Of a DNA stretch of 64,000 nucleotides, positions 1,758 to 33,881 are shown piece after piece. Position 1 is the first letter of the stretch. Every line of letters begins with the position of its first letter. The stretch lies in assembly GCA_905381055.1 (NCBI GenBank), contig CAJPUR010000011.1, positions 1 to 64,000 on the forward strand, written 5' to 3'. This DNA is from an uncultured Flavobacteriaceae bacterium. GTDB taxonomy: Bacteria; Bacteroidota; Bacteroidia; Flavobacteriales; Flavobacteriaceae. The notes beneath the pieces are model-generated. The model was not told the DNA's origin. It saw only the letters and a list, made by a program, of their open reading frames with translations, and did no database searches. Position numbers and translations under genes: made by a program.

Positions 1758-3638
1758 GTGAGTGAAATTTTAAATTTTATTAATTCCAAATTAACATTTC
1801 TTTCCTTATTATTTTTTTTATTTATAACATCATGTAATAATGAGGAAAGGCCTAACATTATTTGGTTAGTAAGTGAAGACAACTCTATTCATTTCATGGA
1901 TTTATATTCTGAAGATGGGGCAAAAATGCCGAATATTTCTAACCTCGCAAAAGAGGGAGTAATTTTCAATAATGCCTTCTCTAATGCTCCAGTGTGTTCT
2001 GTTGCAAGAAGTACAATAATCACTGGTGTTTATGGGCCAAGTATTGGTACGCAATACCATAGAAAAGCATCACCAGTTAATTTACCAAAACATATTAAGC
2101 CACTTCCTCTATACCTTAAAGAAGCCGGATATTATACTACAAACAATAATAAAGAAGATTATAATTTTAAAAGGCAAAATAAAATATGGGATGAGTCTTC
2201 ATCTAAAGCTACCTACAAAAATAGAAAAGTTAATCAACCATTTTTTCATGTTCAAAATTTTGGAGATACTCATGAGGGGCGATTACATTTTGACGAAGAA
2301 TATTTTAAAAAAGAAATTGAAAATTTTAATATTGAAAATACTCCTACTTTCCCTTATCATCCTGATACTCCAATTTTTAGATTTACAAGAGAATTACTTT
2401 ACAAGCACCATATGAGTTTAGATTCTAAGATAGGAGAATTCATCAAAGATCTTGAAAAACAAGGATTAATGGATAATACTATTATTTTCTACTACGGTGA
2501 TCATGGTGGTGTTTTACCTAGAAGTAAAGGATATCTTTATGAAAGTGGACTTAATGTTCCTATGGTTGTCTATATCCCTGAAAAATGGAAAAATCTTTCC
2601 CCATTTCATATTGGCACAAAAACTTCCGCATTTGTCGATTTTCTTGATTTAGTTCCAACAGTTTTATCTATAGCTGGAATTAAAATTCCTGATCATCTAG
2701 ATGGGACTCCTTTTTTAGGTCAAAATATAAAAAAAGAAAATATTGAACAACAAAACATCACTTTCGGATATGCTGACAGATTTGATGAAAAATATGACTT
2801 AGTTAGATCTGTTAGAAAAGGAAAATTTAAGTATATAAGAAATTTTCAACCATTTAATGTGGATGGTTTATACAATTATTATAGATATAAAATGCTAGCC
2901 TACAAGCAATGGTATAATCTATTCAATGATGAAAAATTAAATAAATATCAGGCAAATTTTTTTCTACCCAAGAAAGCAGAAGAATTATATGATCTTGAAA
3001 AAGATCCACATGAAATAAATAATTTAGCAAAAAAATCGAATTTTAAAAATGAATTAAATGAATTACGTAGATTATTGATTAAACAAATTATTTCAAAAAA
3101 TGATCTCAGTTTTTTCCCAGAACCATATTTTTTAGAGAAAGGTATTGAAAATCCAATTGAATTTGGTAAGAAAAATAAAGAACTTTTAGTTTCTCTTATT
3201 GAGGTTGCCAACTTAAATATTTTCACTTTCGAAGAGGTTAGAAAGAAAATTAGTGATGCATTAAATGACAATAACCCATGGATAAAATATTGGGGCTTAA
3301 TTGCATGTACATCATTTGGAATGAAAGCGAAAGAAAACATAAATAAAATAAACACTATTTTTAAAGATGAAAATGAAGAAAATATAGTGAGAATTAGAGC
3401 ATTTGAGTTTTTGCTTTTAAATAATTTAAAATTTGATAGTTCAACAATGGAAGTTCTAATAACTAGTCAAATGAATTTAATGGAAGCAACCTTAATGTAT
3501 AATTCTTTGGCTCTAAATAAAACTATAAATCCAGATTTCAAAATTGAAGTAATCAAAAATATTTTTCCAAAAAAGTGGTTTGAAAAAGAAAATAATCTTA
3601 TGAATAGAAGGATAAATTATTTAACGAATAATGAATGA
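1758..3638 (+). CDS. Sulfatase lipoprotein 1 (CSVAR type, with helical C-terminal extension)
   Basis: A 626-residue S1-type sulfatase predicted to hydrolyse sulfate esters after conversion of Cys80 to formylglycine. It starts with GTG; the signal ends in a lipobox (ITSC, Cys26), so it is membrane-anchored. The N-terminal metal site is SEDN (residues 39-42) in place of the usual DDLG. The active-site box is CSVAR (80-84) in place of CxPSR. The second metal pair Asp248-His249 is in GDHGG. As I recall, some planctomycete and Bacteroidetes sulfatases share this CSVARS variant, so it need not be inactive. Residues about 470-626 form a helical, HEAT-like tail not found in ordinary sulfatases. First gene of a three-sulfatase run; its stop overlaps the next start (ATGA). 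Confidence 0.88.
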   Translation: MSEILNFINSKLTFLSLLFFLFITSCNNEERPNIIWLVSEDNSIHFMDLYSEDGAKMPNISNLAKEGVIFNNAFSNAPVCSVARSTIITGVYGPSIGTQYHRKASPVNLPKHIKPLPLYLKEAGYYTTNNNKEDYNFKRQNKIWDESSSKATYKNRKVNQPFFHVQNFGDTHEGRLHFDEEYFKKEIENFNIENTPTFPYHPDTPIFRFTRELLYKHHMSLDSKIGEFIKDLEKQGLMDNTIIFYYGDHGGVLPRSKGYLYESGLNVPMVVYIPEKWKNLSPFHIGTKTSAFVDFLDLVPTVLSIAGIKIPDHLDGTPFLGQNIKKENIEQQNITFGYADRFDEKYDLVRSVRKGKFKYIRNFQPFNVDGLYNYYRYKMLAYKQWYNLFNDEKLNKYQANFFLPKKAEELYDLEKDPHEINNLAKKSNFKNELNELRRLLIKQIISKNDLSFFPEPYFLEKGIENPIEFGKKNKELLVSLIEVANLNIFTFEEVRKKISDALNDNNPWIKYWGLIACTSFGMKAKENINKINTIFKDENEENIVRIRAFEFLLLNNLKFDSSTMEVLITSQMNLMEATLMYNSLALNKTINPDFKIEVIKNIFPKKWFEKENNLMNRRINYLTNNE

Positions 3639-5158
3639 AAATAGTAAATAGGATAACATTATTAATTGTTTTTTTTACTTTATTTTCTTGCTTAAAAATA
3701 GATGATAAAAATAAAAAACCAAATATTATTTTAATTGTTGCTGACGATCTAGGTTGGACGGATGCCTCTTTTATGGGATCAAATTTCTATGAAACCCCCA
3801 ATATTGATAAATTATCAAAAAGCGGAATGACATTTTATAATGGTTATGCATCCTCAGCTAATTGTGCTCCAAGTAGAGCAACAATGCTATCGGGTAAATA
3901 CCAAACGAAACACGGAATATATACTGTTGGGACATCGGAAAGAGGTAATAAAAAAACAAGAAAAATAATACCAATTAAAAACAAAACTATCCTCGATTTA
4001 GATTTTTTTATAATTCCAGAAATGTTAAAAACTAAAGGCTATATTAATGGTCACTTCGGTAAATGGCATATGGGTCCAAAAGGCTTTTATCCTGAACAAA
4101 GAGGTTTTGACCTTAATATTGGAGGAAACGAAAAAGGGGGTCCTGGCAAAGGAGGGTATTTTTCTCCCTATCTAAATCCTAATCTCTCAGATGGTCCTGA
4201 TAATGAATATTTAACTGATAGGCTTGGAAATGAGGTTGTAAATTTTATTGAATCAAATAAAAAAAAATCATTTTTTGCATATGTCCCTTTTTATTCAGTT
4301 CATACTCCTATTCAGTCAAAAAAGTCATATCAATCTAAGTATTGTAAAAAGTTAGGAGACGTAAATCACAGAAGATGCGATTATGCTGGAATGATAGAAT
4401 CTTTAGATGAAAATATTGGAAAAATTATTAGTAAAATAGAAGAATTAAATCTAGCTGAAAATACCTTAATTATATTTACATCTGACAATGGAGGAATTAG
4501 ATCTATATCAAATCAATTTCCACTAAGAGCTGGAAAAGGATCTTACTATGAAGGAGGGATTAAAGTTCCATTAATTTTTTCTTGGAAAGGTAAAATTAAA
4601 GCTGAAAGTGTATCTTATGAAAGGGTAAGTAATATTGATTTTTTTCCTACTGTAAAAACAATTGTAAATTATGAAAATAGTGATCTAAAATTAGATGGTG
4701 TTGACCTAAATCCCATCTTTAAAGGTGAAAAAATAAGAAAAAGATCTTTATTTTTCCATTTCCCAATTTACTTAGAACCCTATAATGTTCATCTAGATGA
4801 TGGAACCGATCCTTTATTTAGAACACGCCCTGGATCGGTAATTATAAAAGATAATTGGAAATTACATTACTATTATGAGAATAATCAAATAGAACTTTAC
4901 AAAATTGACGAAGATGTTTCTGAATCTAATGATTTAAGTGAAATAAATTTTGAGAAAAAAAATGAACTTTTTAATGATTTAAAAAACTGGAAAACTAAAA
5001 ATAAAGCTCCTGTACCATCAATTATTAATCCTCACTTTGATCAAAAATATGTTGACAGTTTAAATTTTTTAATTAAAAATAATAAAGTTAGCGGGAGGGT
5101 AAATAGAAATGAAAAAATAATTAATAATAATCCTTTTTATTCAACACAAAACAATTAA
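3635..5158 (+). CDS. Sulfatase lipoprotein 2 (arylsulfatase-like)
   Basis: A 507-residue S1-family sulfatase with a lipoprotein signal (FSC, Cys19). All core elements are present: metal ligands ADDLG (Asp37, Asp38), formylglycine box CAPSR (Cys77-Arg81), the GKWHMG motif (Lys143, His145), His223 in SVHTP and SDNGG (Asp284, Asn285). The Cys-type active site needs an FGE or anSME maturase, which is not in the window. It begins within the stop codon of sulfatase 1 and is followed after 13 bp by sulfatase 3, so it is part of one plus-strand operon. The exact carbohydrate substrate and linkage cannot be read from the sequence. Confidence 0.93.
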   Translation: MKIVNRITLLIVFFTLFSCLKIDDKNKKPNIILIVADDLGWTDASFMGSNFYETPNIDKLSKSGMTFYNGYASSANCAPSRATMLSGKYQTKHGIYTVGTSERGNKKTRKIIPIKNKTILDLDFFIIPEMLKTKGYINGHFGKWHMGPKGFYPEQRGFDLNIGGNEKGGPGKGGYFSPYLNPNLSDGPDNEYLTDRLGNEVVNFIESNKKKSFFAYVPFYSVHTPIQSKKSYQSKYCKKLGDVNHRRCDYAGMIESLDENIGKIISKIEELNLAENTLIIFTSDNGGIRSISNQFPLRAGKGSYYEGGIKVPLIFSWKGKIKAESVSYERVSNIDFFPTVKTIVNYENSDLKLDGVDLNPIFKGEKIRKRSLFFHFPIYLEPYNVHLDDGTDPLFRTRPGSVIIKDNWKLHYYYENNQIELYKIDEDVSESNDLSEINFEKKNELFNDLKNWKTKNKAPVPSIINPHFDQKYVDSLNFLIKNNKVSGRVNRNEKIINNNPFYSTQNN

Positions 5159-5171
5159 TATAAATAATAAT

Positions 5172-6704
5172 ATGAAAACTAAACTCATCAAATACTTTTT
5201 ATTATTTACTTTTTTAATATGTTGTAAATCTGAAAAGATAGCATCAAAAAAAAATCCAAATATTGTAATTATATATTTAGATGATTTAGGATATGGAGAT
5301 GTCAGCGCCTATAAAAATGGATTATTAAAAACTCCAAATATTGATAAACTAGCAAATGAGGGATTGAAATTTTATAATGGCTATTCTTCCTCAGCTACAT
5401 GTAGCCCAAGCAGATATGCTTTACTTACAGGAACATATCCTTGGAGAAATCCTAGAGCGAAAATAATAACAGGGGGTTCCCTGATAATTGATACTTTAGA
5501 AATGACATTGCCAAAAATGTTAAAAGAAAAGGGCTATAAAACTGGAATTGTCGGAAAATGGCACTTAGGACTTGGAATAGATAAAATAGATTACAACAAA
5601 ATTATTTATCCTGGCCCAAACGAAATTGGTTTTGATTATTCCTATATAATGGCTGATACTCAAGACAGAGTTCCATCCGCATATATTGAAGACGGAAAGG
5701 TAGTAAACCTTGATCCAAACGATCCGATTGAAGTAAATTTTAATAATAATGATTATGGTCTTCCTACTGGATTAAAAAACCCTGAACTCACATCAATGAA
5801 ATGGCATCACGGTCATAATGGATCAATTGTAAATGGTGTTCCTAGAATTGGATTTATGAAAGGTGGAATTAAAGCAAGATGGAGTGATATAGATATGGCT
5901 GATCATTTCCTTAAAAAAGCTGAAGAATACATAGTTAAAAACAAAGAAGAAACGTTTTTTCTATACTATTCTTTACAACAACCTCATGTGCCCAGAACAC
6001 CTCATCCAAGATTTGAAGGTAAATCTGGTATGGGTCCCAGAGGAGACGTTATTATTGAAGCTGACTGGTGCATTGGTGAGCTATATAAAACTCTAGAATC
6101 TCAAGGTATATTAAAGAATACATTGATAATATTGTCTAGTGATAATGGGCCAGTTCTTAATGATGGGTATTTTGATAATGCAGTTGAAATGATTGGTGAT
6201 CATAATCCATCAGGAGGATTAAGAGGAGGGAAATATAGTTTATTTGAAGCAGGAACTAGAGTCCCATTTATTACTTACTGGAAAGGGAAAATAAATTCTG
6301 GTGTTTCAAATGAGATTATATCTCAATTGGATTTATTCAATTCAATATCAGAAATTGTTGATTCTGAATTTAAATCTAATGATGGTTTAAATCTTTCAAA
6401 TTTGATTATAAATAATCAAGGTAAAGGAAGAGATGAACTAATTCTTGAAGCAACAACTAGAACTGCCTACCGAAATAAAAACTGGGTTATGATACCTCCA
6501 TATAATGGTCAAAAAATTAATAAAAATGTTAATATTGAATTAGGTAATTCCAAAAATTTTATGCTTTTCAATTTAGATGAAGACCCTTTTCAAGATAACA
6601 ATCTTGCTAAAAAAGAACCAGAAAAGTTGAAACAAATGCTTTCAGATTTTATTAAAATAAGAGGTGGAAAATTTTCAAATATTAAAGACTTAAAGCTTGA
6701 GTAA
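5172..6704 (+). CDS. Sulfatase lipoprotein 3 (arylsulfatase A-like)
   Basis: A 510-residue S1-family sulfatase. The signal peptide ends in LICC (Cys17/18), probably lipidated. Motifs are LDDLGYGD (Asp37, Asp38), CSPSR (Cys77-Arg81) followed by LLTGTYPWR, GKWHLG, and SSDNGP for the second metal pair. The TYPWR and GGLRGGKYSLFEAGTRVP segments are usual in arylsulfatase A/galactosamine-6-sulfatase-like enzymes of polysaccharide-degrading Bacteroidetes. It is the last gene of the plus-strand trio and ends 20 bp from the convergent sulfatase 4. It probably removes sulfate from an algal glycan at the cell surface or in the periplasm; the substrate is inferred only from context. Confidence 0.93.
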   Translation: MKTKLIKYFLLFTFLICCKSEKIASKKNPNIVIIYLDDLGYGDVSAYKNGLLKTPNIDKLANEGLKFYNGYSSSATCSPSRYALLTGTYPWRNPRAKIITGGSLIIDTLEMTLPKMLKEKGYKTGIVGKWHLGLGIDKIDYNKIIYPGPNEIGFDYSYIMADTQDRVPSAYIEDGKVVNLDPNDPIEVNFNNNDYGLPTGLKNPELTSMKWHHGHNGSIVNGVPRIGFMKGGIKARWSDIDMADHFLKKAEEYIVKNKEETFFLYYSLQQPHVPRTPHPRFEGKSGMGPRGDVIIEADWCIGELYKTLESQGILKNTLIILSSDNGPVLNDGYFDNAVEMIGDHNPSGGLRGGKYSLFEAGTRVPFITYWKGKINSGVSNEIISQLDLFNSISEIVDSEFKSNDGLNLSNLIINNQGKGRDELILEATTRTAYRNKNWVMIPPYNGQKINKNVNIELGNSKNFMLFNLDEDPFQDNNLAKKEPEKLKQMLSDFIKIRGGKFSNIKDLKLE

Positions 6705-6724
6705 AATTAAATTCTGATGCAAAT

Positions 6725-8290
6725 TTATTCATTTGATGGTTTAAAATAAATTCTTTTTCCATTAGCATCGTAAATATCTCCCGGAGTATATTTAATTCTA
6801 TTATAAGTTCTTTGTTCAAATTGTCTTCCAAGTCCACTTGGTTTTAACCTTGCATTTTCTATTCTTAAATCAATTTCCTTTTTGAGGGAATCAAGTATTA
6901 ATAAATATTTAGAATCATTAACAAGATTAATCAATTCATTTTTATCATACATATGATCGTAAAGTTCATAACCTAATTCTCCATTTTCTCCCCATTTAGT
7001 CAATCTATATCTTTCAGATTTTATTGAATACCCGTTACCTGAGTTATCCATTACATTTAATCTTGTTAAAGCTGAATTACGAACTCTAAAATCAGTATCA
7101 TTAAATATTGGCACTAAACTTTTACCAACAACATGATCTGGAGATTTTATCCCAGTTAATTCCATTAATGTTGGATAAATATCAATTAATTCAACCGGTG
7201 ATTTAGTCGTTTTACCTCTCTCTATTCCTGGTCCTGAAAAAATCAAAGGTACTCTAGTTGACTTATCAAAAAGAGTTTGCTTTTGCCAATGACCATGCTC
7301 TCCTAAATGATAACCATGGTCAGATGAAAATACAATGATTGTGTTTTTATCAAGTCCTGTTTTTTTTAATTTATTTAAAACCCTACCTATTTGAACATCC
7401 ATAAAAGAAATTGTTGCGTAGTAAGCTTCTTTAATTTCCTGGGATAGATCTTCATTAGATTTTAAATTTAATTTAATTTGATTTTTCTTAATCCTTATTG
7501 ACCTGGCTGCTGGATATGGAATTGATTTTAAGTATTCTTCTCCGATACCAGTATATGGAATCACCATTTTTTCTTTTTCATACATATCAAAATATTTTTT
7601 TGGAGCCACAAATGGAGTATGGGGTTTATAAAAACCAACTGCTAAGAAAAAATTTTGTCCACTTTTAGAGAATTTATCTAATTGCTCAATTGCCTCACTT
7701 GCAACAATTCCATCGGTTTGTTCTTCATCTTTCCCATCAGCTTGAAGCCAACTTAAAGTTCCCCCATATTGTCTAGGAGTAAGTGTATTAATTTTATATT
7801 CTTCTTCTTTGTCTCTTCCCCATGGGTTTATTGTATAATCCCATGTATATATATCATCTGAGCTTGAACTTCCTATTGATCCAGGATTATCATAATGAAA
7901 AATTTTACCTATTCTTACAGATCTATAATTCTGTTGCCTAAACCTTTGACCAATCGTTACCACATCAGGTATAGTTGTTCTAATATCTACATTAAGTTTT
8001 GTATGCATTGTTTGGTCAGAATACATACCTGTCATAAAAGATGCTCTTGAGGGACCACATAATGGATATTGAATATGTGCATTTTCAAAAACAACGCCTT
8101 GGCTTGCAAGTCTATCTATATTAGGACTTATAACTTGAGGATGCCCATAATAACCCAAATCACAATTAAGATCGTCAGTCATTATGAATAATACATTCAA
8201 CTTATTATTATTTTTATCCTCAATTTCCTTATTACAAGAAAATAAAATCAGAAGTATAACAAGTTTTAATGAAGTTTTTAAATTTTTCAT
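6725..8290 (-). CDS. Sulfatase lipoprotein 4 (iduronate-2-sulfatase-like)
   Basis: A 521-residue lipoprotein sulfatase (FSC, Cys19) of the iduronate-2-sulfatase-like branch. Family marks are TDDLNCDLGYYGHP after the first strand, the active-site box CGPSR (Cys78-Arg82), GFYKPHTPF in the middle, and SSDHGYHLGEHGHW carrying the second metal ligands. In human IDS and its bacterial relatives these segments occur in the same order. Marine relatives are usually assigned to desulfation of uronic acids or fucose rather than to glycosaminoglycans, so the iduronate label describes the fold and not the substrate. Last gene of the minus-strand trio, 23 bp behind sulfatase 5. Confidence 0.92.
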   Translation of the reverse strand: MKNLKTSLKLVILLILFSCNKEIEDKNNNKLNVLFIMTDDLNCDLGYYGHPQVISPNIDRLASQGVVFENAHIQYPLCGPSRASFMTGMYSDQTMHTKLNVDIRTTIPDVVTIGQRFRQQNYRSVRIGKIFHYDNPGSIGSSSSDDIYTWDYTINPWGRDKEEEYKINTLTPRQYGGTLSWLQADGKDEEQTDGIVASEAIEQLDKFSKSGQNFFLAVGFYKPHTPFVAPKKYFDMYEKEKMVIPYTGIGEEYLKSIPYPAARSIRIKKNQIKLNLKSNEDLSQEIKEAYYATISFMDVQIGRVLNKLKKTGLDKNTIIVFSSDHGYHLGEHGHWQKQTLFDKSTRVPLIFSGPGIERGKTTKSPVELIDIYPTLMELTGIKSPDHVVGKSLVPIFNDTDFRVRNSALTRLNVMDNSGNGYSIKSERYRLTKWGENGELGYELYDHMYDKNELINLVNDSKYLLILDSLKKEIDLRIENARLKPSGLGRQFEQRTYNRIKYTPGDIYDANGKRIYFKPSNE

Positions 8291-8313
8291 ATAATTAAAA
8301 TCTCTGTAATAGA

Positions 8314-9831
8314 TTAAAATGGCCCTTTATTATTTATTTTAGCTGCGTTATTGGATTTTCCAGAAAATTCTCCTCTTTTGCCATAAAAAGAGGTAGTTAA
8401 ACTATAAGGACCACCAACGGGTTCATCATTTTTTGTTATAGATTTTTGCTTTTTTGGACCTGGTCTTCTTTCATACCAGTCTTTTGTTATTTCTGATGGC
8501 TCTGAATCTCCAGTATCATTTTTCCATTGGTTTAAAACCAACTTTAATTCTTTAATTTTTTCTATATATTTTTTATTATCAATTAAATTTTCTCTTTGAA
8601 ATAAATCATTTTTAATTTCGTAAAACTCCTCCCTAGGTCTTGGACTTATAAAAATATCCTTTTGAATATCTGTAATATCTCCAGAGTTAAATTTACTTAA
8701 AAGACTTGCATATGTATCACTATTAATAGCATCTAATGGCCCCCTTTGTGCATATTGATTTCTTTTATTTTCAATATACATGAATTCATTACTTCTCACC
8801 ATCCTTCCGTGTGATTCGAAATCGTGCCAATTATGTTCAGCAAAAACAAAATTTCTAAACTCACTTTCAGGATTTTCTAATAATTTTTTAAAACTCTTTC
8901 CTTGATAATTTTCACCAATTTTAAGACCAGCAAAATCAAGAATTGTTGGTGCAATATCAATTGAACTAACCAGACTTTGGGTTTCCCCTTTGAATTTTCC
9001 ATAGTTATAAACAAGAATAAATGGAGTTTTAACTCCTTGATCATTGAGTCTAGTTTTACTATGTGGAAAAGGTCTACCATTATCAGCCATTACAATTATA
9101 AATGTATTTTCATAAATATTTTGTTCTTTCAAAGTCTTTATTACTTGCCCAATAGAATAATCAAACCTTTTGATCTCATCATAATAATCAGCTAAATCTT
9201 TTCTGGTTGGTCCGTCATTTATAAAATATTCTGGTGGAGTTAAATTTTCAGGATTATGAGTTCCAGAAAATTTGTTTTCTCCCCATTCCCTATGTGCATC
9301 ATGAGATGCATACCATAAAAAAAACGGTTTATCTTTTGGCCTTTTTTCAATACTACTTACCCATTTAGCTTCACCTCCTAAACCATTATCTTTTCTCCCT
9401 TCATGAATTATATCAAATGATTTTCTAGCATAATCTCCCATATGAAATTTTCCTGAGGAGACTGTGAAATAACCACTTTCTTTTAACTCGAAAATAAATG
9501 TTTTCATATCCATTGGTGGCTGGCTATGAAGCTCTGGTGCCCCTGTATTATGGGGATATCTACCTGTAATTATTGAATTCCTACTTGGACTACAAGAGCT
9601 AGTGGTTAAATACATATTTTTAAAAATTAAACCCTCCCCTGCAAGTTTATCAATATTCGGTGTTTTAACGTCTTTATTTCCATAACATCCAAAATCATCC
9701 CAACTTATGTCATCAGCTATAAAAATTATAAAATTAGGTTTAGTTCTTTTCTTTTCAATATTTGAGTCACAAGAAATCAAAATAAAAATTGATAAAAAAA
9801 ATAAAACTGATTTAAATAATTTTTTTTTCAT
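8314..9831 (-). CDS. Sulfatase lipoprotein 5 (heparan N-sulfatase/SGSH-like)
   Basis: A 505-residue lipoprotein sulfatase (LISC, Cys21). It has ADDISWDDFGCYG as the first metal site (Asp40, Asp41) and CSPSR at Cys80-Arg84. The downstream motif RYPHNTGAPELHS matches the N-sulfoglucosamine sulfohydrolase-like group, and a short catalytic loop SHDAHREW follows. The second metal site is MADNGRPFPHSK, also typical of that group. It lies between sulfatases 6 and 4 with gaps of 10 and 23 bp, so it is co-transcribed. Environmental members of the group act on varied sulfated sugars, so the glycan is not determined. Confidence 0.92.
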   Translation of the reverse strand: MKKKLFKSVLFFLSIFILISCDSNIEKKRTKPNFIIFIADDISWDDFGCYGNKDVKTPNIDKLAGEGLIFKNMYLTTSSCSPSRNSIITGRYPHNTGAPELHSQPPMDMKTFIFELKESGYFTVSSGKFHMGDYARKSFDIIHEGRKDNGLGGEAKWVSSIEKRPKDKPFFLWYASHDAHREWGENKFSGTHNPENLTPPEYFINDGPTRKDLADYYDEIKRFDYSIGQVIKTLKEQNIYENTFIIVMADNGRPFPHSKTRLNDQGVKTPFILVYNYGKFKGETQSLVSSIDIAPTILDFAGLKIGENYQGKSFKKLLENPESEFRNFVFAEHNWHDFESHGRMVRSNEFMYIENKRNQYAQRGPLDAINSDTYASLLSKFNSGDITDIQKDIFISPRPREEFYEIKNDLFQRENLIDNKKYIEKIKELKLVLNQWKNDTGDSEPSEITKDWYERRPGPKKQKSITKNDEPVGGPYSLTTSFYGKRGEFSGKSNNAAKINNKGPF

Positions 9832-9841
9832 ATCATATTTA

Positions 9842-11359
9842 TTAATTATCCAAAACAGGTATTATAAACTCATTAATTTCAGGCTTAGAATGAGATTCGT
9901 TCATTAATCTTTTCATTTTTTCTATTACCTCTGGATGAGTTTCAGCTAAATCATTCAACTCTTTTGGATCATCCTTAAGATTATAAAGCTGAATTTTTGA
10001 TAGGCCATTAAACAAGTTCTTTCTAATACCTTTCCAATGGTCAATTCTAATTGCTTGTTGCCCCCCTTGCGCAGGAAACTCCCAATAAAGATGACTACTC
10101 ATTTTTTGTTTTTCACCCATTAATGAGGGATAGTAAGAATTACCATCAATTTTGTTTGTTGGAGCTTCACCAAGAATATCTGAGACAGTAGCAAAGTAAT
10201 CATAAAAAGTCATTGGATAATCTGATTTTGATCCTGGTTTAATTTTTTTTGGCCATGATGCAATACTTGGAACCCTAAGTCCTCCCTCATTTAAACTGCC
10301 TTTAACTGTTTTTTTTGAATTTACAAAAAGACCTGTACTATTGAAAAATTCAATGTCAACTTGATCTTTAAAAGTTGGACCGTTATCACTTGTAAAAATT
10401 ATCAAAGTGTTTTCATATTGTCCAATTTCCTTCAACTTAGAAACTATTTCTCCTACCTGTTGATCTAAATATGATATCATCGCTGCATAAGTTGCCATAG
10501 GTGAGATATTTGGATAATATCCGTCATCACCAAGATAGGGTTCCTCTTTACCAAATTTTTCCCTATAATAATTCACCCACTTTAAAGGGGCTTGTAATGG
10601 TAAATGTGGAATCGGACTGGCGTAATAAAGGAAAAAATTATTGTTTTTATTCCTGTCTAAAAATCCTAAAGCTTCGTTATGCATCAGTGTTGGTGCATAA
10701 TCATTTTGATTATAATCTTGATAACTCTCCTCCATATATGGATCAAGTCCCTGTGCTAGCTTTCCTTTATTAACTATTTTATTATTTAAAATATCTCTTT
10801 CACCATTCTTCCATAAATGACTTGGATAAAGAGTGTGGGCCTGTCTTTGACAATTATATCCATAGAAAAAATCAAATCCCATTTTGTTGGGAACACTATT
10901 AGTATTTGGAGCTCCAAGACCCCACTTCCCGATCATTCCAGTCTTATAACCCTGAGATTGTAAAAAACTTGCAACCGTAATTATTGAATCAGGCATTGGT
11001 CTTTGTCCTTCAAGATTAGGGTCGTCAAACATAGCTTTAAAACTCCATACGTCTCCACGTTCTTTCCATTCTCCATTTCCTCTAATTGGAGAATTGCCAG
11101 TATGAAGACCAGTCATTAAAACTGCTCTTGCAGGAGCACAAACTGGAGAACCAGAATAATGATCAGTTAATATCATTCCATCTTTGGCCAACTGATCTAA
11201 AAATGGAGTTTCAATTATTTTTTGTCCAAAAACTCCTAATTCACCATAACCCAAATCATCAGCTAGGATAAAAACAAAATTAGGCTTATTATCCTTATTT
11301 ATAATTTGGCCACAAGAATAAAGGAAAGTAATTAGTATTAATATGATTCTTTTAAACAC
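9842..11359 (-). CDS. Sulfatase lipoprotein 6 (arylsulfatase, CAPAR type)
   Basis: A 505-residue sulfatase with GTG start and lipobox YSC (Cys16). Metal site ADDLGYGELG (Asp34, Asp35); active-site box CAPAR (Cys74-Arg78) followed by LMTGLHTGNSPIRGN, a common variant in one arylsulfatase branch. GKWGLG and TSDNGP complete the core. It contains a large middle insertion with GFDFFYGYNCQRQAH, another mark of that branch. It leads the minus-strand trio and is read from the 180-bp region shared with the divergent Ste24-type gene. A 12-bp direct repeat lies 38-60 bp upstream of its start and could be a regulatory site. Confidence 0.92.
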   Translation of the reverse strand: MFKRIILILITFLYSCGQIINKDNKPNFVFILADDLGYGELGVFGQKIIETPFLDQLAKDGMILTDHYSGSPVCAPARAVLMTGLHTGNSPIRGNGEWKERGDVWSFKAMFDDPNLEGQRPMPDSIITVASFLQSQGYKTGMIGKWGLGAPNTNSVPNKMGFDFFYGYNCQRQAHTLYPSHLWKNGERDILNNKIVNKGKLAQGLDPYMEESYQDYNQNDYAPTLMHNEALGFLDRNKNNNFFLYYASPIPHLPLQAPLKWVNYYREKFGKEEPYLGDDGYYPNISPMATYAAMISYLDQQVGEIVSKLKEIGQYENTLIIFTSDNGPTFKDQVDIEFFNSTGLFVNSKKTVKGSLNEGGLRVPSIASWPKKIKPGSKSDYPMTFYDYFATVSDILGEAPTNKIDGNSYYPSLMGEKQKMSSHLYWEFPAQGGQQAIRIDHWKGIRKNLFNGLSKIQLYNLKDDPKELNDLAETHPEVIEKMKRLMNESHSKPEINEFIIPVLDN

Positions 11360-29476: not shown

Positions 29477-29977
29477 TTAAATTTTTTCATTAGTTATTGT
29501 TTCATATACCATTTTTAAAAAGGCATTGTAAGAAATAAACATTTCTTCCATGGCAATATTCAACTTATTAATTTCATTTTTAGAACTATGAAATTTACAA
29601 ATTAAAATATTGGTCTTTACTACTTTTAATCTGCTTTTAACTTGAGGTATATCAATAATATTGGGAAATTCTGAATCAAGCAATTCGTCTGACTTAACTA
29701 TTGCATCCATTAAAAAAACTTCAATCCCATTGATATCTAATTTTTTTAAATTTAATATTGTTTTTGAAAATGAATTAAATTTTTTAAAATTGATAAAAAT
29801 ACTGTCAATCTTTTTCTCTGCTGGGATTTTAAAAAATTCAAAATCTTTAATCAACAATGAATCAAATTGACTTTTTTTATTAATTTTAGAAGAAGCATTC
29901 TTATTAATCAATTGCTTTTCACTGCACCCAATTATTATAAGAATAAATAAAATATTGAAGAGATTATTTTTTTTCAT
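29477..29977 (-). CDS. Hypothetical lipoprotein downstream of the carotenoid gene
   Basis: A 166-residue protein with a lipoprotein signal (IIGC, Cys18). The mature part is rich in Lys, Ile and Asn and probably all-helical; there are no recognisable motifs. Its start overlaps the stop of the CruF-like gene by 4 bp (ATGA on the minus strand), so the two are translationally coupled. I do not recognise the family. Confidence 0.6.
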   Translation of the reverse strand: MKKNNLFNILFILIIIGCSEKQLINKNASSKINKKSQFDSLLIKDFEFFKIPAEKKIDSIFINFKKFNSFSKTILNLKKLDINGIEVFLMDAIVKSDELLDSEFPNIIDIPQVKSRLKVVKTNILICKFHSSKNEINKLNIAMEEMFISYNAFLKMVYETITNEKI

Positions 29978-30627
29978 CCTATTGCACTTTCTAAATCTTT
30001 AATTTTCAATAATAAAATCATAAAAAATACCAATTGTAAAATAAATAAATGGTGAGTAAAATAAGAATTAATTTCAATTTTCCAATAATGATAAAAAAAA
30101 TGAATAGGAAGAGAAACTATAAACCACCCAAAATAATTTTGAAGTGGGGCAACATTATTATCAAAGCTCCAAAAGTCTAAAATAGGAGCGACTGGTTCAA
30201 TTAATAAATCTAGTATCAGAGCCAACGCTATTCCAATTAAAATTTTCAACCAAAAATTATTACTAAATTTATTTGAAATTGAAGCAGAACATATAGATAC
30301 AATTGACCAATTTGCGGCAATTAAAATAGGAACCCCCTGAAATTTAATCCCTAGAGAATTACCATAACTATAATTACCAAAAATTAAACCATGATTAGCA
30401 CCCAAATACTCTGAAAAAAAACCAATTAAAAAACTTAAAACAAGAATATATAAAAATCTTGGGGTTTGCCAGCAGACAATTATCAGTAAAAGAAAACTAA
30501 TTAATAAATTTATTGGAGTTGCTGATAAGAACCACTTCGAATCAAAATATAAAATACCTACAACTCCTGTTAAATGAAAAAGCCAAATTACAAAGATTGA
30601 TAAATTTATAATCGATACCTTTACCAT
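29974..30627 (-). CDS. Carotenoid biosynthesis membrane protein (CruF-like)
   Basis: A 217-residue protein with six to seven hydrophobic helices. The family pattern seen in CruF/DUF422 carotenoid 1,2-hydratases is present: EYLGANHGLIFGNYSYG, followed by GVPILIAANWS, LILDLLIEPVAP and a WFIVSLPIHF segment. In related bacteria the enzyme hydrates the psi-end of an acyclic or monocyclic carotenoid, giving a tertiary 1'-hydroxyl (myxol/saproxanthin type pigments). A phytoene desaturase gene lies about 1 kb away on the other strand, which supports a carotenoid role. It is coupled to a lipoprotein gene at its 3' end. Confidence 0.82.
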   Translation of the reverse strand: MVKVSIINLSIFVIWLFHLTGVVGILYFDSKWFLSATPINLLISFLLLIIVCWQTPRFLYILVLSFLIGFFSEYLGANHGLIFGNYSYGNSLGIKFQGVPILIAANWSIVSICSASISNKFSNNFWLKILIGIALALILDLLIEPVAPILDFWSFDNNVAPLQNYFGWFIVSLPIHFFYHYWKIEINSYFTHHLFILQLVFFMILLLKIKDLESAIG

Positions 30628-30755
30628 TGAGAATTATTTATTAAAATAAAATTAATTCATTTAAACGTTAAACCTAATTTTAATAAAAATAATTTAAAAG
30701 GTTAATTAATTTATGACAATTATTCTCAAATTTATTAATTTTAAAAAAAAATGAG

Positions 30756-30845
30756 ATGACTCCAACCTTTGTAGCAAATACTGTAATTATTACTACCATT
30801 ATTGTAATAATTTTTATTGTTAGAGACCTTTATAAAAATAAATGA
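30756..30845 (+). CDS. 29-aa single-helix membrane peptide coupled to the K+ channel gene
   Basis: An ORF of 29 codons begins with ATG 11 bp after a poly-A run and ends TGA at 30843-30845, overlapping the channel start (ATG at 30842) by 4 bp. The product is a short polar N-terminus (MTPTFVAN), one hydrophobic stretch of about 16 residues (VIITTIIVIIFIV) and a charged tail RDLYKNK. It looks like a single-pass peptide with a positive-inside C-terminus. Two bases before it, ATG AGA TGA forms a two-codon ORF whose stop overlaps this start. The tight coupling suggests an accessory peptide of the channel or a translation-control leader. No homologue is known to me. Confidence 0.5.
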   Translation: MTPTFVANTVIITTIIVIIFIVRDLYKNK

Positions 30846-31537
30846 AAGTCCATAAATTTATTGACCAATTTATTCTTGTTTTAATTGTATTAAATGTTAT
30901 TGCAATGGTTTTAGAATCTCACCAAAGTTTAAGAATTAGACATCAAACTTTTTTTAATACATTTGAATTGGTTTCTATTTCAATCTTCTCTGTAGAATAT
31001 GTTTATAGAATTTTACATAATTTTAATAAAAAAAGGATTAAAGGCCTATTTTCTTATGTTTTCAGTTTTTTTGGTATAATTGATTTAATTTCTATTTTAC
31101 CTTTTTACCTTGGTAATTTAATGCCACTTGATGGTCGATTTATTAGAATATTAAGGCTATTTAGAATTGTAAGGATATTTAAATTAGGAAGAAACAATCC
31201 TTCATTAAGGTTATTTGGTAAAGCAATTTATGCTGTTAAAAGTGAACTTTATTTTACATTATTTTTAGCAACATTATTGATACTATTTTCAGCCTCAGCT
31301 ATATATTATTTGGAAAACGATGCGCAACCCGAAAAATATTCAAGTATAACTGAATCAATATGGTGGGCTACAATATCATTAACTACAGTTGGCTATGGAG
31401 ATGTATATCCTGTGACTCTTGGTGGAAAGATTTTTGCAACTTTAATTTCATTAGTTGGTATTGGAATAGTAGCAATACCAACCGGAATAATTAGCGCTTC
31501 TTTTGTAGAGCAAATTAACAAGAAGAAAAAAAAATAA
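30842..31537 (+). CDS. Voltage-gated potassium channel
   Basis: A 231-residue six-helix ion channel (S1-S6) of the bacterial Kv type. S4 is clear: arginines every third residue from Arg99 to Arg117 (GRFIRILRLFRIVRIFKLGR). The pore carries the K+ selectivity filter TVGYGD (182-187) after the pore helix ESIWWATISLT. S6 (GIGIVAIPTGIISASF) ends in a short KKKKK tail without an RCK/TrkA-N domain, so gating is probably by voltage alone. Its start overlaps the stop of the 29-residue membrane peptide. It probably assembles as a tetramer in the inner membrane. Confidence 0.95.
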   Translation: MKVHKFIDQFILVLIVLNVIAMVLESHQSLRIRHQTFFNTFELVSISIFSVEYVYRILHNFNKKRIKGLFSYVFSFFGIIDLISILPFYLGNLMPLDGRFIRILRLFRIVRIFKLGRNNPSLRLFGKAIYAVKSELYFTLFLATLLILFSASAIYYLENDAQPEKYSSITESIWWATISLTTVGYGDVYPVTLGGKIFATLISLVGIGIVAIPTGIISASFVEQINKKKKK

Positions 31538-31579
31538 AAATAAACTCTGAATTCTATATTTACATAAATCAGACAGATA

Positions 31580-33052
31580 ATGAAAAAGAAAGTTGTAATA
31601 ATTGGATCAGGATTTTCATCTCTTTCTGCATCATGCTATTTAGCAAAATATGGATTCGAGGTAACCGTCTTTGAAAAGAATGAAACTTTTGGAGGTAGAG
31701 CTAGTCAATATAAAAAAGATGGTTTTACTTTTGATATTGGTCCTTCCTGGTATTGGATGCCTGACGTTTTTGAAAAATTTTTTAATGATTTTAATAAAGT
31801 TGTCTCTGATTATTATTTTTTAAAAAAATTAGATCCTGCATATGAAGTTTACTTCTCAGACGGAAAAAGTATTAAAATAGGAGATACACTCGAAAAAATT
31901 TATTCCGCATTTGAAAAAGAAGAAAAAGGGAGTTCAACTAAACTTAAAAGATTCATTAAAAATGCTGAAGAAAACTATAATATCGCTGTAAAAGATTTAG
32001 TATACAATATGCCTGGCATTTCTCCTCTAGAATTAGTCACTCTTGATACCATTAAAAAAATAGGTTATTTTCTGAGTACTATCAAAAAAGAAGTAAATCG
32101 AGAGTTTAATAATCCAAAATTATCTCAAATACTCCAGTTTCCAGTTCTCTTCCTTGGTGCAAAACCCGGTGCTACTCCAGCATTTTATAACTTTATGAAT
32201 TTTGCAGATTTTGGTCTTGGAACATGGCATCCAAACAAAGGAATGTATAGTGTAGTTAAGGGGATTGTTGATTTAGCAATAGAACTTGGAGTTAAATTTC
32301 ATAATAATAAAAACGTTGAAAAAATTATTGTTGAAAATAGTAAGATCAAAGGTGTTAAAGCTAATGGGAAAATTTATAATTTTGATATTGTTCTTTCTGG
32401 GGCTGACTATAATCACAGCGAAAAACTTCTTGATAAAAAATATAGAGTTTATTCTGAAAAATTTTGGTCTAAAAAAGTATTTGCTCCTTCTAGTCTTTTA
32501 TTTTTTGTTGGAATAAATAAAAAAGTTAAAAATGTTTCACATCATACTTTATTTTTTGATGTGAATTTTGATAAACATGCAAACAGTATTTACGACACCC
32601 CCGAATGGCCAAAAGAACCTCTATTCTATGGAAACTTCCCTTCGATCACTGATAAAACTATGGCTCCAAAAGGGAAAGAGTCCTGTTTTTTCTTGATCCC
32701 AATTGCTTCAGGGATTGAAGATAACAAAGAAATAAGAGAAAAATATTTTAAAATTATAATCGAAAGATTAGAAAAATTAACTGGGCAGTCCCTGAAAAAT
32801 GATATCCTTTTCAATAAATCATATTGTTTGAATGATTTTGTTAAAGATTATAACTCTTACAAGGGTAATGCCTATGGACTAGCAAATACTTTAATGCAAA
32901 CTGCTTTTCTAAGACCTAAACTAATAAGTAAAAAAGTCAAAAATCTTTTTTTTTCTGGACAATTAACAGTTCCAGGGCCAGGAGTACCACCAGCACTTAT
33001 TTCAGGTAAATTAGTGTCTGAAATTATTAAAAACCATAATCCTGAGGTCTAA
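31580..33052 (+). CDS. crtI: Phytoene desaturase
   Basis: A 490-residue FAD-dependent amine-oxidase-fold enzyme that converts phytoene to lycopene by successive desaturations. The FAD-binding motif VIIGSGFSSLSAS lies at the N-terminus with GGRAS following. The segment FDIGPSWYWMPDVFEKFF is characteristic of flavobacterial CrtI and separates it from CrtD-type hydroxycarotenoid desaturases. The C-terminal bacterial-type signature LFFSGQLTVPGPGVPPALISG is intact. No phytoene synthase (crtB) or cyclase is adjacent, although crtB commonly follows crtI. The 3' end overlaps the convergent unknown gene by 26 bp. Confidence 0.94.
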   Translation: MKKKVVIIGSGFSSLSASCYLAKYGFEVTVFEKNETFGGRASQYKKDGFTFDIGPSWYWMPDVFEKFFNDFNKVVSDYYFLKKLDPAYEVYFSDGKSIKIGDTLEKIYSAFEKEEKGSSTKLKRFIKNAEENYNIAVKDLVYNMPGISPLELVTLDTIKKIGYFLSTIKKEVNREFNNPKLSQILQFPVLFLGAKPGATPAFYNFMNFADFGLGTWHPNKGMYSVVKGIVDLAIELGVKFHNNKNVEKIIVENSKIKGVKANGKIYNFDIVLSGADYNHSEKLLDKKYRVYSEKFWSKKVFAPSSLLFFVGINKKVKNVSHHTLFFDVNFDKHANSIYDTPEWPKEPLFYGNFPSITDKTMAPKGKESCFFLIPIASGIEDNKEIREKYFKIIIERLEKLTGQSLKNDILFNKSYCLNDFVKDYNSYKGNAYGLANTLMQTAFLRPKLISKKVKNLFFSGQLTVPGPGVPPALISGKLVSEIIKNHNPEV

Positions 33053-33881
33053 AAACCCAATAAACTATTGTAAGTTCTTTTTCTTTGTCTACAACTACAG
33101 AATCAATATATGATATATTTTCATCAAGAGTTTTGGCATAATCATCCAGTTGACCCATAATTTGATCCCATAATTCAATCCTTTTAAGTAGATTATATTT
33201 AACGTACTTGTCTTTTTGAACATATTCCCTGTTGTCTATCCAAAATTGAGATTTTTCAGTTTCAATCCTTTTTATATCAAAAACCCACCTATTTTTAATT
33301 CTATTCTCAAAATCAGCAATATATGTTTTTTCCTCTTGAGCAGTATTTTCAATTATATATTTTAAATCAGTACCATCATAAGTTTTGTTAACTCTCCTAC
33401 CTAATTCTGGTCCTAAAAAACGAAAAGTCCCATCAAGCTTAATTGCATCATAAACAACTCTTGGAGGGTCAAATGGATCTCTTTGAGTATAAAAAGTTAA
33501 TGGAGCATATCTTCCGTCTTCATCAAAAACAACAAAAATACTATCATTATCCACTTCCCACCTTAAATATTGTTTTTTATACATGTCACTTACCCATTCC
33601 ACCTGATCTAAATATTCCATTGTATAAGTCTTCATACTATTTAACTCATCTCTTAATCCTTCCAAATTTTCAATATTTTTAGATCTATCCTCAAAGTTGG
33701 CTCCTTTTTGTTCAACTCCAAATGAAACAAGAACACCAAAAAAAACAATGAAAAAGTTTACTATCCCCTCTTTTAATCTATCATAAAAATCTTTCCATGA
33801 AAATCTATCCCCTAAAGTTATTAATCTTAAAAACCAATTTAACTTTTCGGCTTTGACTCCCCTTTCTTTTTTATCTGGCAT
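33027..33881 (-). CDS. Unknown single-pass membrane protein (284 aa)
   Basis: A 284-residue protein with a basic N-terminus, one membrane helix at about residues 38-55 (GIVNFFIVFFGVLVSFGVEQ) and a large, charged, mostly helical C-terminal part. The helix followed by an E/R/N-rich start of a long helix and an LRDEL stretch recalls a family of Bacteroidetes unknowns (DUF6090-like). I am not certain of that. The C-terminal part should lie in the periplasm if the basic end stays inside. It overlaps crtI tail-to-tail by 26 bp and starts 34 bp upstream of nothing else on its strand; addB follows at 33916 to the right. Function unknown. Confidence 0.6.
   Translation of the reverse strand: MPDKKERGVKAEKLNWFLRLITLGDRFSWKDFYDRLKEGIVNFFIVFFGVLVSFGVEQKGANFEDRSKNIENLEGLRDELNSMKTYTMEYLDQVEWVSDMYKKQYLRWEVDNDSIFVVFDEDGRYAPLTFYTQRDPFDPPRVVYDAIKLDGTFRFLGPELGRRVNKTYDGTDLKYIIENTAQEEKTYIADFENRIKNRWVFDIKRIETEKSQFWIDNREYVQKDKYVKYNLLKRIELWDQIMGQLDDYAKTLDENISYIDSVVVDKEKELTIVYWVFRPQDYGF

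Follow-up and report, generated by a model that had tools for sequence, protein, structure and literature searches.

A 29-codon open reading frame (ORF) lying just upstream of a voltage-gated K+ channel gene, in a stretch of 64,000 nucleotides from an uncultured Flavobacteriaceae bacterium (contig CAJPUR010000011.1; the whole stretch is called the window below), is a real and conserved gene. It belongs to a family of single-pass membrane microproteins which is confined, as found here, to one clade of marine Flavobacteriaceae, and in most genomes it stands first in a tight gene row (peptide, K+ channel, crtI), often behind a promoter element. The peptide very probably acts in trans, as a docking microprotein; that the Kv-type channel (or another Kv channel) is its main client is a proposal to which we give somewhat less than even weight. 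Annotation readily overlooks small membrane proteins; the present family, which has no database model, nevertheless turned up in almost all of the clade's genomes that were examined. The locus in the window is laid out as follows.

30736–30743, forward strand: TAATTTTA, a copy, with one mismatch, of TAnnTTTG, the −7 promoter element of Bacteroidota
30751–30759, forward strand: two-codon ORF ATG AGA TGA, present, not conserved
30756–30759, forward strand: ATGA common to the two-codon ORF and the peptide start
30756–30845 (stop included), forward strand: 29-codon peptide ORF MTPTFVANTVIITTIIVIIFIVRDLYKNK, a 29-aa single-helix membrane microprotein of a conserved family
30842–30845, forward strand: ATGA overlap of the peptide stop with the channel start (−4, also in G001 and G003)
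30842–31537, forward strand: voltage-gated K+ channel ORF, 231 aa, with S1–S6, a basic S4 and a TVGYGD filter
31580–33052, forward strand: phytoene desaturase CrtI/CrtID (NF058655 above cut-off), the next gene of the operon

A previous, sequence-only reading of this DNA had described a peptide whose stop overlaps the channel start by ATGA, and an ATG AGA TGA overlapping the peptide start in the same way; the coordinates confirm the former and the latter is indeed present in the window. Upstream of the peptide lies a divergent gene of the carotenoid family PF04240, for which the CruF models score below cut-off. Downstream, a 284-aa protein (33027–33881) is encoded convergently with crtI and overlaps its end; it has no match in Pfam or NCBIfam, and its cluster is present in 20 of the 30 stretches compared. 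An Rfam scan of 29500–33500 returned zero matches to RNA families. Elsewhere in the window, six consecutive large ORFs (1758–11359) resemble sulfatases, the first and the last being PF00884 and the middle four judged by eye.

By its sequence and its modelled fold, the downstream gene is a Kv-type voltage-gated K+ channel. It matches PF00520 (E 1.3e-37), and its nearest solved chains by sequence are Kv channels, namely Kv4. The fold of its AF2 model (pLDDT 84.6) comes closest to Kv4.2 (TM 0.73, by query length), and the basic S4 residues R105, R108, R111, K114 and R117 as well as the filter V183-G-Y-G-D187 are invariant in 24 aligned channels.

We identified this channel clade in 22 of the 397 family genomes of a drawn sample (E 4.6e-98 or better) and, among the 80 loci listed, in at least 10 further named genomes; with these 10, the set comprises 32 channel-clade genomes. 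L033 was dropped as the same record as G003. The peptide adjoins the channel in 20 of the 32 genomes (16 from the family sample and 4 named) and lies away from it, still intact and at several unrelated sites, in 10 (5 and 5). One of these ten, G107, has its channel cut by a contig end, and its non-adjacency is inferred from its congener G315 and from the peptide lying on another contig. A relative of the peptide was found somewhere in 30 of the 32 genomes; it was not found in the channel genomes G210 and G427, absences which are weak, many of the genomes being incomplete MAGs. The family search retrieved the peptide in 21 of the 22 channel genomes versus 2 of the 375 others; not counted are matches weaker than E 0.01 and one in G157 (E 0.0014) that falls within a frame of 463 codons. 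Each carrier genome has one copy at E ≤ 0.01, except G125. The carrier clade includes the NS5 genus Ca. Arcticimaribacter, two MAGs of which carry the peptide (L031 and L032). Beyond the window, an order-wide search of 395 genomes gave only four matches (E 0.002–0.008), all within frames of 456–471 codons, which we set aside as chance transmembrane segments rather than distant relatives. Searches of Pfam, NCBIfam and PHROG yielded only weak and inconsistent matches to the peptide family, and no consistent Pfam family.

No internal gaps are needed to align the 32 sequenced copies, three of which are two residues shorter at the N-end. With a profile built from the 20 adjacent peptides only, all 12 non-adjacent sequenced copies score 21–55 bits. 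The highest score among 5,200 background ORFs is 19.2 bits, from the G315 copy that contains unknown bases, and among 2,400 shuffles it is 16.1 bits. Selection acts on the protein. Pooling 13 close pairs, in several of which synonymous sites are near saturation, we obtained pS 0.562 and pN 0.127 (pN/pS 0.23), that is a dN/dS of about 0.13 after JC correction, and the other two frames of the same pairs gave pN/pS of 1.05 and 1.88, revealing selection in the peptide frame only. Purifying selection on the peptide, whose absence the sequence-only reading had named as a ground for refutation, is present. Every copy has V6 and D24 and nearly every copy V10, and the conserved residues V6, V10, T13, V17, I21 and D24 form one face of a helix. 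Computed on related sequences, the entropy of positions 5–24 follows a 100-degree period (moment 8.34 versus a permutation mean of 3.09, p 0.0004), which holds without D24 (p 0.0011) and when the maximum over 90–110 degrees is taken (p 0.0026). Net charge averages +0.97 for the C-end and +0.22 for the N-end; since the C-end is the more positive, the positive-inside rule places it (D24, K/R) probably in the cytoplasm.

The tightness of the junction is general, its exact form is not. The peptide stop lies −14 to +7 from the channel start in 20 of 20 adjacent loci (the gaps of G091, G306, G325 and G274 among them, as well as that of G428, were read by eye, with in-frame starts); the exact −4 ATGA junction is restricted to three species of the window's genus, the other 17 spanning −14 to +7. 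In the congeners G001 and G003 the peptide is retained and still overlaps the channel by ATGA, so that neither frame nor overlap is lost in these two relatives; no channel was found in the third congener, G002 (63% complete). The conservation to be looked for in other flavobacteria is borne out for the peptide and a tight junction, since 20 of the 32 genomes have both ahead of this channel, but not for the exact ATGA, which is limited to the genus. As for the two-codon ORF, ATG-NNN-TGA occurs in the window alone (1 of 28 loci) and is absent from G001 and G003, and TTG-NNN-TGA stands at its place in G078 and G429. This ORF is probably incidental; as it is private to that genome, the "three-step coupled series" that had been read from the window is not supported.

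Flavobacterial promoters are described as carrying TAnnTTTG at −12 to −5 (PMC6847099; PMC9723704). Of 32 loci, 18 have an exact TAnnTTTG in the 80 nt that precede the peptide, where 2.4 would be expected, and in 16 of those 18 it sits at −24 to −31, pointing to a leader of some 15 nt. In the window there is no exact TAnnTTTG within 80 nt of the peptide, only TAATTTTA with its one mismatch, from which, applying the spacing given in PMC6847099, we infer an mRNA start near 30748. An own promoter element precedes three of the nine sequenced orphan copies, those away from the channel (G107, G428 and G430). A sigma-70 scan, whose model does not cover Bacteroidota promoters, gave 6 sites versus a shuffle mean of 9.2.

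We then compared the gene contexts. The common block, with gains and losses, runs from a cruF-like gene (with genes that we take to be crtD and crtA-like) through peptide, channel and crtI to a DUF284 gene, crtI coming after the peptide-channel pair in 19 of the 20 adjacent cases. The exception, G125a, is a peptide-channel pair outside the crt locus and without crtI, whose channel does not group with that of its congener. The other copy of this genome, G125b, precedes crtI without a channel, at a gap of 86 nt. The two G125 genes lie at L150 1501–1587 and near L161 1498–1581, one of them by crtI without channel, and the copy paired with the channel outside the crt locus starts with GTG. Genus g206 (G382 and G212) also has the peptide before crtI without channel, here with an 8-nt overlap (−8). 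The orphans are scattered: before an arsR-family gene (PF01022) in G350, and in G424 and G429 by likeness; before a gene for a 145-aa putative lipoprotein, which matches no Pfam family, in G430 (ATGA overlap, −4) and G428 (6 nt); after a glycoside hydrolase family 3 gene in G107, and in G315 by cluster; after a prolyl oligopeptidase gene in G352; at yet another site in G163; and near a contig end in G426. A ThuA-family gene (PF06283) sits between channel and crtI in G350 (L198 6398–7123), and its cluster also follows the channel in G163, G107 and G315, all four genomes having orphan peptides. Six genomes have crtI but no detected peptide, namely G007, G357, G415, G264 (where crtI is split in two), G149 and G210; no peptide was found upstream of crtI in them, G007 being covered over 223 nt only. 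In G007, G357, G415 and G264 (L253–L256), crtI comes after tRNA-Lys and tRNA-Leu genes. A TAA inside crtI of G091 and G306 is at most the gene's own end.

These contexts were set on a DnaE tree of 29 genomes (20 of 24 carriers and 10 others; G107 gave no DnaE), midpoint-rooted and including 5 rows of odd composition, that of G212 among them. Carriers of peptide or channel form one clade of 19 rows (support 84/99), which is adjoined by G007 and G357, both lacking peptide as well as channel, and within which g206 is nested (92/97). Because g206 sits inside the carrier clade, it has probably lost the channel, and since its locus is contiguous the absence is not an assembly gap; G382 has a different channel (E 1.5e-55), and the only channel match of G212 (E 9.4e-34) lies at a contig end. 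The g206 peptide has nonetheless remained under constraint, with 12 synonymous differences over 20.3 sites and 3 nonsynonymous differences over 72.7 sites between the two genomes, and retains V6, V10, V17, I21 and D24, T13 being replaced by S. In the channel tree (35 rows), nine of the ten orphan-type genomes and G427 fall in one subclade (100/100), with G352 apart. The channel of G210, which lies outside the crt locus in a genome where no peptide was found, sits on a longer end branch (0.79) than any other of its clade (median 0.12), as if its constraint had changed.

The helix face is conserved in every gene context, which argues for docking on a protein partner. We propose that the microprotein would cross the membrane once, with its charged C-end in the cytoplasm, and would act in trans, the face V6-V10-T13-V17-I21-D24 docking on a membrane protein as an accessory subunit. 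Coupled synthesis may let the helix enter the membrane beside the nascent channel, where it could stabilise the channel tetramer or tune its gating. Since g206 keeps the peptide, the microprotein must be capable of functioning without the clade channel as well. As judged from the genes, the channel is the leading, though unproven, client, and we name it tentatively: the tight adjacency is frequent (20 of 32), both genes are restricted to the same clade, and the G125a pair stays together outside the crt locus. The candidacy is weakened by the purifying selection on the g206 peptide with the channel gone, by the second G125 copy beside crtI without channel, by the coupling of the peptide to crtI in g206 (−8) and to the lipoprotein gene in G430 (−4), by the ten channel genomes in which the peptide lies at several unrelated sites away from the channel, and by the nearest out-of-clade channels (G349, G337 and G149; 52–55%), which have no peptide alongside and in whose genomes none was found. 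The single-helix membrane peptide tightly coupled to a voltage-gated K+ channel gene, as first read from the window, therefore stands, and under selection. Its casting as a channel subunit is possible, though the case is weakened: the coupling and a conserved face fit for docking agree with it, but g206 keeps peptide and face without the channel.

Several of the points that weaken the channel favour another reading, in which the microprotein belongs, as a small subunit, to a different membrane complex present throughout the clade, g206 included (respiratory or transport, for example), and the channel is merely its commonest operon neighbour. Intact orphans at several sites, three of nine sequenced with their own promoter element, and a peptide coupled to three different downstream genes suit this reading, which we regard as plausible without expecting it to be right; the frequent channel adjacency and the joint displacement of the G125 pair speak against it, as does the failure to find a candidate partner. 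Cytochrome bd, the complex of CydH, was ruled out: CydA (PF01654) was found in 0 of 24 genomes, including 0 of the 12 at least 90% complete, in a search that covered genomes other than the 10 named-record ones and whose control was found in 10 of 14. Rhodopsin (PF01036) does not discriminate, being found in 32 of 42 genomes, the peptide-free G007, G357, G264, G415 and G149 included; none was found in the two Ca. Arcticimaribacter MAGs that carry the peptide (G421 and G422). This genus is NS5_F of the NS5 marine group, in which proteorhodopsin is called a unifying feature (PMC9122927). A part played in making carotenoids, such as anchoring CrtI to the membrane or partnering it, would account for crtI coming next in 19 of 20 adjacent cases and directly after the peptide in g206 and G125b. 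The six genomes with crtI and no detected peptide rule out CrtI as obligate partner, and with the ten genomes whose peptide is off the crt locus, and G125a where it accompanies the channel only, they make such a role improbable.

The peptide might also act alone, as a homo-oligomer or as a type I toxin-like hydrophobic peptide, its size and hydrophobicity being suitable and a one-sided face fitting self-association as well; weak matches to a holin model appear in 3 of 27 members (best E 0.0078). Against this, carrier genomes other than G125 hold one copy, in tight gene rows, and no Pfam family is matched consistently, and we give this possibility little credence. A cis-acting leader or coupler, for which only translation through 30756–30845 matters and sets channel synthesis, would explain why stop and start overlap or nearly do so in 20 of 20 adjacent cases. 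A leader of this kind should always precede the gene that it regulates, and 10 of the 32 channel genomes carry the peptide elsewhere; moreover, one helix face shows conserved amino acids, and the protein persists without a following channel in those ten genomes, g206 and G125b. Because copies persist away from any channel, a purely cis-acting coupler is excluded, and with it the "device setting channel synthesis" suggested at the outset; we consider the cis reading as a whole very improbable. A chance ORF, conceivable for a short frame in an AT-rich region, is rejected by the selection, helix-face and profile tests, leaving a negligible probability.

Returning to the docking microprotein with the channel as leading client, a bolder version would make it the first case in bacteria of a single-helix auxiliary subunit for a Kv-type channel, supplying a "missing S0/KCNE" helix with a V-V-T-V-I-D docking face. 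It would be encoded by its own 29-codon gene and translated just before the channel, in marine flavobacteria that mostly have rhodopsin and pair the channel with a carotenoid gene. We put this forward as speculation, possible but doubtful. No bacterial Kv auxiliary microprotein appeared in the open-access literature searched, by titles and abstract openings among the matches listed. As the gene occurs beside the channel, away from it and in its absence, the clade itself supplies natural controls for a search for the partner.

Several known systems resemble this one. KdpF, of about 30 aa, from the KdpFABC K+ pump, is likewise a single hydrophobic helix and first cistron before a K+-conducting membrane protein, and is proposed to stabilise the complex without being essential for the transporter (PMC3618439). 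Here, in contrast, the candidate partner is a Kv-type channel, and the peptide gene moves away and survives without it; rather than kdpA, it precedes the Kv-type channel, crtI or other genes. The KdpF family was absent among the matches of 27 members at E up to 1, in Pfam and NCBIfam libraries that presumably contain KdpF models. CydH (YnhF), the 29-aa subunit of E. coli cytochrome bd-I, has the same length and a matching TTIIVL core, and was the only PDB chain matched by the peptide profile at E up to 10; however, the match is not significant (E 1.3), its alignment stops before D24 and cytochrome bd was found in none of the 24 genomes tested. MgtS and other small membrane regulators stabilise or tune a transporter with one helix; the peptide shares the single helix, but only 1 of 27 members matches the MgtS model (E 0.25). 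The single-span beta subunits KCNE/MinK of Kv channels in animals offer a parallel in presumed mode of action, a lone helix that modulates a Kv tetramer, the channel here being Kv-like, but the microprotein has only 29 aa; the KCNE/MinK papers among the matches listed concern, by title, animal channels, and no such family occurs among the Pfam matches of peptide members. Closest in its presumed way of working to KdpF or KCNE while belonging to neither by the tests made, the microprotein would, if the channel is its client, provide a minimal model of a single helix tuning a Kv channel.
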